A stretch of 48,693 nt of DNA from an uncultured bacterium (GTDB lineage: Bacteria; Bacillota; Clostridia; Oscillospirales; Oscillospiraceae): contig CASFCW010000009.1 in assembly GCA_949293165.1 (NCBI GenBank), positions 1 to 48,693 of the forward strand, read 5' to 3'. The position numbers and the translations under genes are program-made. Under the pieces are notes generated by a model, which was given only the letters and a program-made list of their open reading frames with translations, searched no databases and had not been told where the DNA came from. Every line of letters starts with the position of its first letter. The stretch's first letter is position 1. Shown here piece after piece: positions 43,344 to 48,632 of the stretch.

Positions 43344-44696
43344 ATGACCAAGGACCTGACCAACGGCAGCCCCATGAGGCTGATTGTGGGCTTTACCATC
43401 CCCACTTTGCTGGGGATGCTGTTCCAGCAATTCTACAATATGATGGATACCATGATTGTGGGCAAGCTGTTGGGCGCCTCCGCCCTGGCATCCGTGGGGG
43501 CTACGGGCTCCATCAATTTCTTCGTCATCGGGTTTTGCATGGGGGTGTGCAACGGCTTTGCCATCCCCGTGGCCCAGCGGATGGGCGCGGGGGATTACAG
43601 CCAGCTGCGCCGGTGCGTGGCAAATGCCGGGTGGCTGTCGGCCCTGTTCGCCCTGGTGCTCACCACAGCTACCTGCCTGCTCTGCCCCCAGATCCTCACC
43701 CTGATGCAGACGCCGGCGGATATTTACAAGGGCTCCTACCAATACATCTTTATCATCTTCCTGGGGATTCCCACCACCTTCTTATATAACCTGCTGGCGG
43801 GCATCATCCGCTCCCTGGGGGACAGCAAAACCCCGGTTTATTTCCTGGCTATGGCCTCCTGCCTGAATATTGCGCTGGATCTGGTGCTCATCCTGTTCTG
43901 CAACACCGGCGTGGCCGGGGCGGCCATCGCCACCGTCATCTCCCAGGGGGTGTCCGGCGCGGCGTGCCTGATATACATGATCCGGAAGTACCCCATCCTG
44001 CGGATGAGCCGGGAGGAGCGGCGGATGGACGGACGCACCTGCCGGATGCTGTGCTACATGGGTGTGCCCATGGGACTGCAATATTCCATCACCGCCATCG
44101 GCTCCATCATCCTCCAGTCCGCTGTCAACCAGCTGGGCAGCGGCTATGTGGCCGCTGTGGCCGCCGGCACGAAGCTGTTTCAGGTGATTTGCTGCCCCTA
44201 TGAGGCCATGGGAGCCACCATGGCTACCTACTGCGGCCAGAATGTGGGTGCGTTGAAGCTGGAGCGGCTGGGCCAGGGGGTGCGCTCCTGCATTTTGCTT
44301 GGGTTTGGGTACGCCGCCCTGGCGCTGGGGACCCTGCTCCTGTTCGCCCCCCAGCTGGCGCTGCTGTTCCTGGATGCGGACGAGGGGGATCTCATCGGCT
44401 ATACCGCCCAATATATCACCATCCTGGGCATGTTTTTCTGCCTCCTCGCGCTGGTGAATATCCTCCGGTTCTCCATCCAGGGCATGGGGTACAGCAACTT
44501 TGCCATGATTGCCGGAGTGCTGGAGATGGCGGCCCGGACGGCGGTGGGCCTGCTGCTGGTGCCGGCGGTGGGCTTCATCGGCGCCTGCTTTGCCTCCCCC
44601 GCCGCCTGGCTGATGGCCGACCTGTTCCTGGTGCCGGCCACTGTGGGGTGTATCCGGGCGCTGAAAAAACGGTACGGCCAGGGCGTACCGGCATAA
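43344..44696 (+). CDS. MATE-family multidrug/cation exporter
   Basis: 450 residues from ATG 43344, with AAGGAG 9 bases upstream. Twelve hydrophobic helices in two similar halves. Family motifs are the N-terminal RLIVGFTIPTLLGMLFQQFY, YNMMDTMIVGKLLGASALAS, CMGVCNGFAIPVAQRMGAGD and, in the second half, MGVPMGLQYSITAIGSIILQ. MATE proteins export drugs or metabolites in exchange for Na+ or H+; the substrate is not predictable. It may form a stress-response neighbourhood with the BceAB-type transporter, but a terminator lies between them. It converges on the alcohol dehydrogenase gene at a shared terminator. Confidence 0.93.
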   Translation: MTKDLTNGSPMRLIVGFTIPTLLGMLFQQFYNMMDTMIVGKLLGASALASVGATGSINFFVIGFCMGVCNGFAIPVAQRMGAGDYSQLRRCVANAGWLSALFALVLTTATCLLCPQILTLMQTPADIYKGSYQYIFIIFLGIPTTFLYNLLAGIIRSLGDSKTPVYFLAMASCLNIALDLVLILFCNTGVAGAAIATVISQGVSGAACLIYMIRKYPILRMSREERRMDGRTCRMLCYMGVPMGLQYSITAIGSIILQSAVNQLGSGYVAAVAAGTKLFQVICCPYEAMGATMATYCGQNVGALKLERLGQGVRSCILLGFGYAALALGTLLLFAPQLALLFLDADEGDLIGYTAQYITILGMFFCLLALVNILRFSIQGMGYSNFAMIAGVLEMAARTAVGLLLVPAVGFIGACFASPAAWLMADLFLVPATVGCIRALKKRYGQGVPA

Positions 44697-46128: not shown

Positions 46129-46174
46129 ACTAATACGATTAAGCGGCGGCCCAACGCCGCAGTTGGAGGATTGA

Positions 46175-46984
46175 ATGATGAAAAAGACGCTTGCACTGCT
46201 CCTGTCCGCGGCGATGGCCCTGTCTCTGGCCGCCTGCGGCAATTCTGACAGCGGTTCCGGCTCCCAGTCCAATGTAGAGGAAAAGATCGTTTATGCCGTG
46301 GAGGCTGGCTCCGCCGGCGAGGCTGTGGCCCAGGAGAAGGGCTTTGAGTACAGCTCCGTGGCCTCCCAGGCCGACGCCCTGATGGAGGTTGCCTCCGGCA
46401 CCTCCGACGCCGCCATTATCGACCTGCTCATGGCCGGCGCCATGATCGGCGAGGGCACCAGCTATCCCAACCTGGTTCAGGGCGAGGAGCTGACCACCGA
46501 GGAGTACGGTGTGGGCTGCCGCCAGGGCAGTGACCTGGCTGAGTACATCAACTACGTCTTCTCCCAGGCCTATGCCGACGGCACCATGCAGGAGCTGGCC
46601 GAGACCTACGGCGTGCAGAAGGTGCTGCTGGAGCAGGGCGAGGTGGCTGAGCCCACCATCGCCGCCGACGGCGACATCGCTTACATCCAGGGCAAGGGTA
46701 CCCTGGTGGTGGGTATCACCAACTTCGCCCCCATGGACTACAAGGACGACAACGGCCAGTGGATCGGCTTTGACGCTGACATGGCCCGGGTTGTGGCGGA
46801 GAAGCTGGGCGTCACCGCCGAGTTTATCGAGATCGACTGGGACAACAAGATCATGGAGCTGGACTCCAAGGGCATCGACGTGGTGTGGAACGGCATGACC
46901 CTCACCGACGAGGTCACCTCCTCCATGGAGTGCACCAACGCCTACTGCCAGAACGCCCAGGTGATTGTGACGCCCGGCGAGTAA
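46175..46984 (+). CDS. Polar amino acid ABC transporter substrate-binding lipoprotein, apparently circularly permuted
   Basis: 269 residues; GGAGG lies 7-8 bases before ATG 46175. The signal peptide has lipobox LAAC with Cys21. In the ordinary family the mature protein starts with GTLVVGITNFAPMDYKD, continues to WNGMTLTDEV and NAQVIV, and only then FAVEAGSAGE, DALMEVASGTSDA, LMAGAMIGEGTSY, EEYGVG and a YADGTM-type end. Here the second half comes first (VYAVEAGSAGEAVA at about 39-52 through YADGTMQELAETYGV at about 135-149), then a linker, then the normal first half (GTLVVGITNFAP at about 175 to NAQVIVTPGE at the end). The order is swapped with all motifs kept and no duplication. It should still bind an amino acid. 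It is followed by an intercistronic hairpin and its permease. Confidence 0.88.
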   Translation: MMKKTLALLLSAAMALSLAACGNSDSGSGSQSNVEEKIVYAVEAGSAGEAVAQEKGFEYSSVASQADALMEVASGTSDAAIIDLLMAGAMIGEGTSYPNLVQGEELTTEEYGVGCRQGSDLAEYINYVFSQAYADGTMQELAETYGVQKVLLEQGEVAEPTIAADGDIAYIQGKGTLVVGITNFAPMDYKDDNGQWIGFDADMARVVAEKLGVTAEFIEIDWDNKIMELDSKGIDVVWNGMTLTDEVTSSMECTNAYCQNAQVIVTPGE

Positions 46985-47011
46985 CGAATAAAAAGCTGTG
47001 CTGAATCCAGC

Positions 47012-47041
47012 AAAGGCAGGGAGCGGACGCTCTCTGCCTTT
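47012..47041 (+). terminator. Intercistronic hairpin after the substrate-binding protein gene
   Basis: AAAGGCAGGGAGC pairs with GCTCTCTGCCTTT (one G-U pair). The TTT is short, so partial termination or mRNA stabilisation is likely. This is typical where a binding protein is needed in excess over permease and ATPase. Confidence 0.65.
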
Positions 47042-47109
47042 GCCCGGTTTGTCAGAACCTTCCATTTTGTGGGCCGGGCCCACCATTACCACATGACGGG
47101 GGATCATCC

Positions 47110-47763
47110 ATGCTGCTAGACGTAACGCTCACATTGCTCACCGGAATGGCCACTACATTCCAGATCTTCATTCTCACCCTGGTGTTTGCCCTGCCCTTGG
47201 GGCTGGTGGTGGCCTTCGGCACCATGAGCTCCATCACCCCCCTGCGCCAGGGGTGCAATCTCCTGGTCTGGATTGTCCGGGGTACGCCGCTGATGCTCCA
47301 GCTCATCGCCTTTATGTACATCCCCGGCATCATGGGCTACAACATCTGGCCCAGCGGCGACGCGGGGCGGATGATGGCCACGGTGGTGTCCTTCTCCCTG
47401 AACTACGCCTGCTACTTTTCCGTGATTTATCGGGGCGGCATCCAGGGGGTCCCGGTGGGCCAGCGGGAGGCCGGCCAGGTGCTGGGCCTGACCAAGCGCC
47501 AGATTTTCTTCCAAATCACCCTGCTGCAGATGATTAAGCGCATCGTGCCCCCCATGTCCAACGAGATCATCACCCTGGTGAAGGATACCTCCCTGGCCCG
47601 GATCATCGCCGTGTACGAGCTGACCTTCACCGGCTACTCCTACATGAAAAGCAGCGGCCTGGTGTGGCCCCTGTTCTATACCGGCGTGTTCTACCTGGTC
47701 TTTGTGGGGGTGCTCACCATCCTGTTCAGCTGCATCGAGCGCAAGCTGGAATATTTCCGATAA
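47110..47763 (+). CDS. Polar amino acid ABC transporter permease
   Basis: 217 residues from ATG 47110 after GGGGGAT. A HisM/GlnP-type permease with five helices. The N-terminal helix is TLLTGMATTFQIFILTLVFA, then WIVRGTPLMLQLIAFMY (RGTPLMLQL is a family signature). The cytoplasmic EAA loop is QREAGQVLGLTKRQIFFQIT, which contacts the ATPase. The end is LVKDTSLARIIAVYELTFTG and YTGVFYLVFVGVLTILF. Only one permease gene is present, so the channel is probably a homodimer. It works with the ATPase 12 bases downstream and the lipoprotein upstream. Confidence 0.95.
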   Translation: MLLDVTLTLLTGMATTFQIFILTLVFALPLGLVVAFGTMSSITPLRQGCNLLVWIVRGTPLMLQLIAFMYIPGIMGYNIWPSGDAGRMMATVVSFSLNYACYFSVIYRGGIQGVPVGQREAGQVLGLTKRQIFFQITLLQMIKRIVPPMSNEIITLVKDTSLARIIAVYELTFTGYSYMKSSGLVWPLFYTGVFYLVFVGVLTILFSCIERKLEYFR

Positions 47764-47775
47764 GGAGGGGCCGGA

Positions 47776-48561
47776 ATGCCTATTTTGGAAGTACGCAACC
47801 TGGAAAAGCACTTTGGGGCCACCACGGTCCTGGAAAATATCAGCTTCGACCTGGAGCAGGGGCAGGCGCTGGCCATCATCGGCTCCTCCGGCTCCGGCAA
47901 GACCACCCTGCTGCGGTGCCTGAATTTTTTGGAGACCCCCAGCGGCGGGCAGATCCTGGTGCAGGGCAAGACCCTGTTTGACGCCGCCGACCCCAGCACC
48001 CAGCGGGAGAGCGAGGTGCGGAAAAAGCGCCTGCATTTCGGCATGGTGTTCCAGTCCTTCAACCTGTTCCCCCAGTATACCGCCCTGGAAAACGTGACCC
48101 TGGCCAAAAAGCTGATGTGCCAGGAGCTGCCGGAATATAAGCAGAAAAAAAAGCAGATGCTGGCCCAGATCCAGGAGGAGGGGGAGGAGCTGCTGGGGAA
48201 GATGGGGCTGTCCAACCGGGCGGGGCACTACCCCCACCAGTTGTCCGGCGGCCAGCAGCAGCGGGTGGCCATCGCGAGGGCCCTGGCCATGCACCCGGAC
48301 ATCCTCTGCTTCGATGAGCCCACCTCCGCCCTGGACCCGGAGCTCACCGGCGAGGTGCTGAAGGTGATCCGCGGCCTGGCGGAGCAGAAAACCACCATGA
48401 TTATCGTCACCCATGAGATGGCCTTCGCCCGGGATGTGGCCGACCAGGTGATTTTTATGGACGGCGGCGTCATTGTGGAGCGGGGCCCGGCCCGGGAGGT
48501 TATTGAAAACCCCCGGCAGGAGCGCACCAGGCAGTTTTTGTCCCGGTACTCCGAAAACTGA
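47776..48561 (+). CDS. Polar amino acid ABC transporter ATPase
   Basis: 261 residues from ATG 47776 with AAGGAGG 8 bases upstream, 12 bases after the permease. Walker A GSSGSGKTTLLRCLNFLE, Q-loop MVFQSFNLFPQYTALENVTL, signature LSGGQQQRVAIARALAM, Walker B ILCFDEPTSALDPELTGEVL, H-loop VTHEM. This is the GlnQ/HisP group. An insertion rich in Lys and Glu (YKQKKKQMLAQIQEEGEELL) lies in the helical domain near residue 120-140. It is the last gene of the operon, followed by a strong terminator. Confidence 0.96.
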   Translation: MPILEVRNLEKHFGATTVLENISFDLEQGQALAIIGSSGSGKTTLLRCLNFLETPSGGQILVQGKTLFDAADPSTQRESEVRKKRLHFGMVFQSFNLFPQYTALENVTLAKKLMCQELPEYKQKKKQMLAQIQEEGEELLGKMGLSNRAGHYPHQLSGGQQQRVAIARALAMHPDILCFDEPTSALDPELTGEVLKVIRGLAEQKTTMIIVTHEMAFARDVADQVIFMDGGVIVERGPAREVIENPRQERTRQFLSRYSEN

Positions 48562-48566
48562 ACCGT

Positions 48567-48599
48567 GCTCCCCGCTCCTCCCGGAGCGGGGAGCTTTTT
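48567..48599 (+). terminator. Terminator of the amino acid ABC operon
   Basis: GCTCCCCGCTCC-TCCC-GGAGCGGGGAGC then TTTTT. Confidence 0.93.
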
Positions 48600-48609
48600 G
48601 TATAAAGAA

Positions 48610-48632
48610 AACCACTCGCTAGGCGAGTGGTT
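48610..48632. repeat. Perfect 10-bp hairpin near the right edge, possible IS200/IS605-type end
   Basis: AACCACTCGC-TAG-GCGAGTGGTT followed by CAAAAAAGCC, then AT-rich sequence and AGGAG (48684-48688) as if a gene starts just outside the window. A subterminal hairpin close to a small transposase gene is typical of IS200/IS605 elements, but the window ends before any transposase, so this remains a guess. Confidence 0.3.

Follow-up and report, generated by a model that had tools for sequence, protein, structure and literature searches.

Swapped halves in a predicted amino-acid-type binding lipoprotein of an Oscillospiraceae importer, and apparently repeated circular permutation of its family in Bacillota

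How can the substrate-binding protein of an ATP-binding cassette (ABC) importer have its two halves in the wrong order? The question is raised by an open reading frame (ORF) of 269 amino acids at positions 46175-46984 of contig CASFCW010000009.1 (assembly GCA_949293165.1), from an uncultured bacterium of the Oscillospiraceae. By the window, we mean the whole stretch that was analyzed, which is positions 1 to 48,693 of this contig. An earlier note, made from the letters of the window, proposed that the ORF encodes a circularly permuted amino acid-binding lipoprotein. We found that it is a predicted solute-binding lipoprotein of family 3 (PF00497, or SBP_bac_3) and that its halves are indeed swapped. 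The permutation is also family-wide and recurrent, which goes beyond what the earlier note described.

The PF00497 profile matches the protein in two stretches, with 91.1 bits against a curated cut-off of 26.4. When we compared the protein to the sequences in the PDB with phmmer, residues 9-102 of 4zv1 aligned to residues 174-266 of the query, and residues 133-229 aligned to residues 49-144. The N-terminal part of 4zv1 aligns late in the query and the C-terminal part aligns early, so the halves are inverted. We carry over the names of lobes and hinges from canonical folds, on the assumption that they apply here. The chain then runs from Cys21 through a spacer, lobe 2, the second hinge crossing (TEEYGV), the C-terminal helices of lobe 1, a linker, and the N-terminal segment of lobe 1 to the first hinge strand (NAQVIV) and the stop codon. 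As proposed, the cut lies at the first hinge crossing, the chain closes at NAQVIV (in both the phmmer alignment and a predicted structure), and, given the order of the parts, one of the two covalent crossings between the lobes is gone. The earlier note also described both halves as complete and not duplicated. Each half does occur just once, but relative to the canonical profile, a 12-column loop between hinge 1 and the first strand of lobe 2 is absent (a gap in the rotated row). The features are:

46165..46169, + strand: likely ribosome-binding site GGAGG (from the sequence)
46175..46237, + strand: signal peptide and lipobox (SLAAC) with a predicted lipid-anchored Cys21 (from the sequence; lipobox by regular expression)
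46238..46282, + strand: flexible spacer, residues 22-36 (from the sequence)
46283..46495, + strand: lobe 2 segment, residues 37-107, central in canonical proteins, containing SDAAIIDLLMAG; borders approximate (phmmer and family alignment A1)
46496..46513, + strand: second hinge crossing TEEYGV, the sole remaining covalent crossing (alignment with canonical sisters; hinge assigned as in canonical folds)
46514..46636, + strand: C-terminal helices of lobe 1, residues 114-154, whose end YGVQKVLLEQ corresponds to the canonical C-terminus (alignment, sister comparison, and model)
46637..46672, + strand: linker from the canonical C-terminus to the canonical N-terminus (comparison with the canonical proteins of loci L120 and L084)
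46673..46951, + strand: N-terminal segment of lobe 1, residues 167-259, DIAYIQGKGTLVVG...WNGMTLTDEV (best PF00497 stretch, residues 178-267)
46952..46984, + strand: first hinge strand NAQVIV, the new free C-terminus, and stop codon (phmmer and model)
47110..47763, + strand: ABC permease subunit (Pfam match to PF00528; conserved in relatives)
47776..48561, + strand: ABC ATPase of the amino-acid importer type (Pfam match to PF00005; conserved in relatives)

The earlier note suggested a structure prediction and a search for relatives with the same order, and both agree with the swapped arrangement. AlphaFold2, given alignment A1, produced a confident model of the window protein, with a mean predicted local distance difference test score (pLDDT) of 93.6 and a predicted TM-score (pTM) of 0.85. 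When one genome was scanned for each species, 304 relatives turned up, and we fetched and read the best 80. In canonical proteins the N-terminal part of lobe 1 stands ahead of lobe 2, but in the window protein and in 80 of these 80 relatives lobe 2 comes first; counting the window's own copy (L082), there were 81 permuted calls. In 77 of the 81 genes, a regular expression for the lipobox matched ahead of lobe 2. Of the four misses, two (L001 and L068) run off the end of their contigs, and the other two (L046 and L053) seem to have ordinary signal peptides. It is practically negligible, in our judgment, that a tandem canonical gene was collapsed or misjoined during assembly, even though the source genome is in 127 contigs, given that all 80 fetched loci show the same order on many other contigs (with L026 and L040 titled as strains rather than metagenome-assembled genomes) and that the junction is conserved in A1.

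The protein also appears to be maintained by selection and to be part of a transport operon. Alignment A1 has 39 rows and a mean column identity of 78%, and both named residues of the linker motif DxxxI, Asp and Ile, are invariant. Across 79 relatives, the differences to the window at the first, second, and third codon positions are 0.184/0.117/0.546 in the lobe-2 half and 0.169/0.088/0.528 in the lobe-1 half. Similarly, NG86 estimates for L019, L044, and L071 give nonsynonymous divergence (dN) of 0.13-0.19 against synonymous divergence (dS) of 0.49-0.80 across both halves. These codon patterns indicate that purifying selection acts on both halves. In all 79 loci from L002 to L080, the next gene downstream of the permuted one encodes a permease. 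An ATPase gene follows in 77 of them, and in the other two (L018 and L059) the contig stops before an ATPase gene could appear. A lipoprotein or secreted protein with an adjoining permease and ATPase is what identifies the binding protein of an ABC importer, and the window protein fits. Beyond the permease and the ATPase, the listed families of neighboring genes, which we read by eye without a dedicated search, offered no usable hint of the ligand. Plasmid records gave a single match that covers just 47% of the query.

We also note a few features of the surroundings. Upstream of the permuted operon, 22 of the 80 loci also encode another amino-acid binding protein, of canonical order (for example, L026:1805-2599 and L005:2739-3539), and in 14 of these 22 a permease and an ATPase that belong to it are in view as well. 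Long antisense frames at 46139-47107 (-) and 47116-48615 (-) lie opposite the binding-protein, permease, and ATPase genes and are probably shadows of biased codon use. The ORF at 43344-44696 looks as if it encodes a MATE-type efflux protein.

Where did the permuted gene come from? Locus L001 led us to a sister family with canonical order. The N-terminal part of its gene, which covers the end of lobe 1 and the first part of lobe 2, has matches in 107 of 200 genomes of the window's family (E <= 1e-10), and canonical order was found in all 30 sister loci that were fetched (31 genes). Among the genomes with a match, we read 13 whose match lies in lobe 2 (query start >= 40), namely G000, G193, G034, G088, G125, G159, G013, G146, G082, G069, G140, G083, and the more distant G101. 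All 13 are permuted and have a single match each, so the canonical sister is absent there at E <= 1e-10. Where enough of the locus is in view, the canonical sisters have the same arrangement of binding protein, permease, and ATPase, and they are up to 70% identical to the re-ordered window protein. L001 itself, with a chain that runs lobe 1 - lobe 2 - lobe 1', might seem to be an intermediate that has survived. In L001:1-846, however, the first 100 residues agree with canonical L084 at 90 positions, residues 101-282 agree with the window protein at 178 of 182, and the gene lies at a contig end, so we take it to be a recombinant or a chimera.

The sisters also bear on what the protein binds. 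Window-type proteins retain the Asp-containing motif of lobe 2. In PF00497, the Arg of the motif GMTxTxxR grips the α-carboxylate of the ligand. Of 91 permuted rows, among which some genes recur (the window gene is in L082, L115, and L164), 80 have Val in its place and 11 have Thr. It is replaced by Val or Ile in 41 of 41 canonical sisters, and it is present in all 23 other canonical proteins of loci L001-L082 (the 22 upstream neighbors and L081). So a plain α-amino acid is not an assured ligand, and because the canonical sisters lack the Arg as well, its loss most likely preceded the permutation in the window's clade. Could the gene be a decaying fragment, or a paralog with another role (such as a sensor) that is merely retained in the operon? 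The missing Arg would fit, and ligand binding by the window protein is a prediction. But both halves are under purifying selection, the operon is strictly conserved, no canonical sister stands in for the permuted protein in the 13 genomes that we read (E <= 1e-10), and intact canonical sisters do without the Arg too. We consider this explanation quite improbable.

The junction suggests how the permutation arose. In canonical L120, the C-terminus is KYGVQDALVEQ and the domain starts with ESDLEYIKGKGKLIVGITDF, and the majority junction of the permuted proteins in A1 is YGVQExLVEQ-spacer-DSDVAYIQxKGTLIVGITDF. The linker is thus the old C-terminus followed by the old N-terminus, and the loop that led from hinge 1 to lobe 2 is gone. 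The earlier note placed a linker around YIQGK; these residues do lie in the linker, but they are not new sequence, as they correspond to the stretch with which the mature canonical sisters begin (SDVAYIQNKGTLVVG in L084). A linker made of the sisters' C-terminus and N-terminus makes tandem duplication, fusion, and trimming a likely origin, and it is the scar that would be expected if an in-frame tandem copy was trimmed at both ends. In a tree of re-ordered proteins, the window's clade forms a single branch (100/97) with canonical rows next to it, and a quick tree of the lobe-2 part has one permuted clade (98) beside L120 and L084. Duplication followed by loss of the outer halves, as the earlier note had it, is thus favored by the anatomy of the linker, by the nested position in the tree, and by two kinds of arrangement in the wider family (described below), namely canonical genes that lie side by side and one tandem that is fused.

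We found no remnants of the lost halves beside the gene. Among 3577 short ORFs from 160 flanking stretches, the only matches were in four loci (L027, L034, L052, and L057), and at all four a neighboring canonical protein lies at those coordinates. We also considered a disulfide between Cys115 and Cys253 or Cys258, but the same Cys residues recur in canonical L120, so they are not tied to the permutation.

Instead of one duplicated gene, two different binding-protein genes might have supplied the halves. In L001, recombination (or chimeric assembly) has joined a canonical gene of this clan to a permuted one, and L084 falls among permuted rows in a tree of lobe 1. However, the closest canonical row for both parts is L121 (identity of 0.75 for lobe 1, tied with L110, and 0.68 for the lobe-2 part), the trees of both parts, which are quick searches on few columns and are poorly resolved, place the permuted clade among the same canonical sisters, and the linker consists of the sisters' own two ends. 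So we think that a fusion of two genes is improbable.

We prefer duplication of a single gene. In this scheme, the window protein is the substrate-binding lipoprotein of a polar-amino-acid-type ABC importer with one permease and one ATPase, and its gene is circularly permuted at the first hinge crossing. A canonical gene would have been duplicated and fused in frame in tandem, and the first copy of lobe 1 and the last copy of lobe 2 would then have been lost. The product would keep the usual two-lobed type II clam fold, with the old hinge-1 strand now serving as a C-terminal strand in the old hinge place. It would close on its ligand via one covalent hinge strand and this new C-terminal strand, and it would take over the docking site that the canonical protein uses on the permease, while its lipid tether would now hang from lobe 2. 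The median spacing from the Cys to the first profile residue is 10 residues in 77 permuted proteins versus 27 in 39 canonical sisters.

Several results weigh against this scheme. First, sequential Foldseek aligns just one half of the model closely, as with the arginine-binding protein 6ggp (83 columns, 1.5 Å, 38% identity), and the highest TMq among the matches listed was 0.51. This is expected of a permuted protein. Second, canonical L084 lies inside the permuted clade in the tree of the N-terminal part of lobe 1, which was a quick search on few columns and is poorly resolved. Third, we did not find a two-copy ancestor within the window's own clade. Finally, L046, L053, and L047 (whose match to the regular expression looks spurious) have no clear lipobox, so lipid tethering is not universal among the relatives. 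Nevertheless, the order of the parts, their conservation, the operon, the nested position, and the composition of the junction can be read from the sequences, and a permuted importer binding protein that arose by duplication of a canonical gene is, as a whole, very probably the best explanation.

Is the window's clade a special case? We ran a profile search against 391 genomes of the class, reading the hits with half-profiles and with the canonical 234-column profile, and a junction search against 398 genomes of the phylum. Three cut sites emerged: alpha, at about column 104-118 (hinge 1, as in the window); gamma, at about column 133, inside lobe 2 (L147-L150, a single clade from four genomes); and beta, at about column 174, just ahead of hinge 2 (for example L119, L122, L129, L145, L151, and L154). 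Loci L001-L213 have 241 binding-protein ORFs, with repeats of one gene across loci included: 124 are permuted, 110 are canonical, 5 are split, 1 is a fused tandem, and 1 is partial. Because loci were picked by their match to permuted profiles, 124 of 241 is not a frequency. Four of the split ORFs (L152, L153, L169, and L207) cluster with permuted relatives, and when we read two of them directly (L152 and L169) they proved to be permuted; the fifth is L001. A beta permutant was also folded in silico with confidence (pLDDT 91.1, pTM 0.80), and its lobe 1 and first part of lobe 2 are collinear with canonical chains over about 175 columns.

To count origins, permuted proteins were doubled, re-ordered, and aligned to the canonical profile. 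Of the 240 re-ordered rows, 6 with fewer than 180 of the 234 columns were dropped (L152, L153, L169, L207, L195, and the second gene of L212), and removing near copies left 132 rows and then 81 for the tree. On this tree, 7 changes are required for the alpha label, 5 for beta, and 1 for gamma (5-95% ranges across bootstraps of 7-7, 5-5, and 1-1), or 14 changes if the tandem pair is included. The bootstrap, at 0.986, was not fully settled, and L199, L194, and two canonical rows are on long branches. Forcing the window's clade together with the A' proteins (L116 and L117) was rejected (approximately unbiased test, p = 7.8e-9), as was placing all of the beta rows in one clade (p = 1.8e-53), so a single origin is rejected for both of the joins that we examined. 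By the re-ordered alignment and its tree, then, the PF00497 permutants within Bacillota have three cut sites and form 13 lineages. The tree alone does not separate gain from loss; the permuted clades lie among canonical ones, and canonical order is the general state of PF00497. Counting close kin outside the tree, 10 of the 13 lineages are in at least two genomes. For example, 9 of 41 genomes (among them the source of L197 itself) have a match to the L197 lineage that is collinear and full-length, and four of the nine were fetched and read as permuted. The L135, L144, and L194 lineages rest on one genome each, and for L144 there was no second close full-length match among 41 genomes. All 4 A' rows keep the Arg of GMTxTxxR, as do 10 of 14 beta rows and 3 of 4 gamma rows, so its loss is not needed for permutation elsewhere.

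Some arrangements in the wider family are possibly living examples of the supposed intermediates. L200:1591-3174 encodes a fused tandem of two canonical domains (528 amino acids) that lies beside beta permutant L145 in the tree (95/85). The tandem substrate-binding domains of GlnPQ (6h30) likewise give two copies per chain, as expected of an intermediate, and we take both of those copies to be canonical and complete. Adjacent canonical gene pairs occur at L099/L209 and L201, and the paired frames at L201:1978-3597 and L209:4476-6569 share a reading frame with one stop between them.

Other variants turned up as well. A permuted domain is fused to an ABC permease in L225:775-2376 (534 amino acids, with a PF00528 match) and in L195:2633-4243 (537 amino acids). 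Beta permutant L156:102-1109 lacks a clear lipobox and seems to use a transmembrane helix at its N-terminus as an anchor. A 1149-residue frame in G983 has a near full-length collinear match (33%) to permuted L197 and may hold several binding domains. At L212:5603-6301, about 1.8 kb past a window-type gene, there is a second, beta-like permuted frame that is cut by the end of the locus.

Does the permutation matter to the protein? That it is a neutral topological accident, with the mechanism unaffected, seems to us about an even bet. Permuted and canonical forms occupy the same operon slot, three cut sites are tolerated, and some permutants seem to lack a lipobox. On the other hand, whether the cut is alpha, beta, or gamma, the mature protein and hence the tether start on what appears to be lobe 2 rather than lobe 1, which is unlike random cuts, though viable loops may simply lie there. 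More speculatively, the PF00497 proteins of Bacillota may be a natural hot spot for permutation, which would have been selected repeatedly to re-hang the receptor and thereby alter its opening and its docking on the permease; we find this rather doubtful.

How does the window protein compare to known systems? Both of its halves align to canonical PF00497 proteins, namely Thermotoga maritima ArgBP (6svf), AncQR (4zv1), and the histidine-binding protein of Streptococcus pneumoniae (4ohn), and an ABC importer operon is in common; the window protein differs in that its halves are inverted and it lacks the carboxylate Arg. At E <= 1e-20 there are 16 PDB sequences, all of them amino-acid binding proteins or the ancestral and dehydratase kin of these, with the type II fold, and in none of the 16 does the best stretch run across the permuted order. 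A type I, MglB-like fold does not fit, as no sugar-binding protein was among the matches listed by phmmer against the PDB. The glycine-betaine proteins OpuAC and ProX and the molybdate-binding proteins are type II. Natural permuted binding proteins are already known from two other families (PMC4990184, PMC2395249). OpuAC/ProX and the molybdate-binding proteins are related by circular permutation at below 24% identity (CPSARST, PMC2395249); the relation is deep and structural, while permuted and canonical forms of PF00497 are up to 70% identical. OpuAC (PF04069) had no match to the window protein at E <= 1. The other is TpMglB-2 (Tp0684) of Treponema pallidum, termed 'Type Ic', a membrane-tethered ABC binding protein that is naturally permuted, binds ligand, and changes conformation; its authors note relatives in Gram-positive bacteria, many from the gut, and speculate about tethering (PMC4990184). 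TpMglB-2 has a type I (sugar, MglB) fold with a reordered N-lobe and a fourth crossing (PMC4990184), whereas the window protein would be type II (amino acid), with its hinge cut and one crossing fewer. Among the papers listed by our search of open-licence literature, there was no natural permutant of PF00497.

Natural circular permutation is usually regarded as rare and old. In PF00497, it appears to have happened many times over, in related gut bacteria, with unpermuted kin that are up to 70% identical and occupy the same operon slot. The gene pairs and the fused tandem resemble steps between the canonical and permuted forms, and with such close kin and step-like forms, permutation by duplication becomes directly testable. 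Automatic annotation, which reports just the PF00497 match, hides the permutation. The family offers matched natural pairs for asking how the order of the chain and the position of the tether affect a binding protein, and it is a natural experiment on how well proteins tolerate being cut and rejoined.
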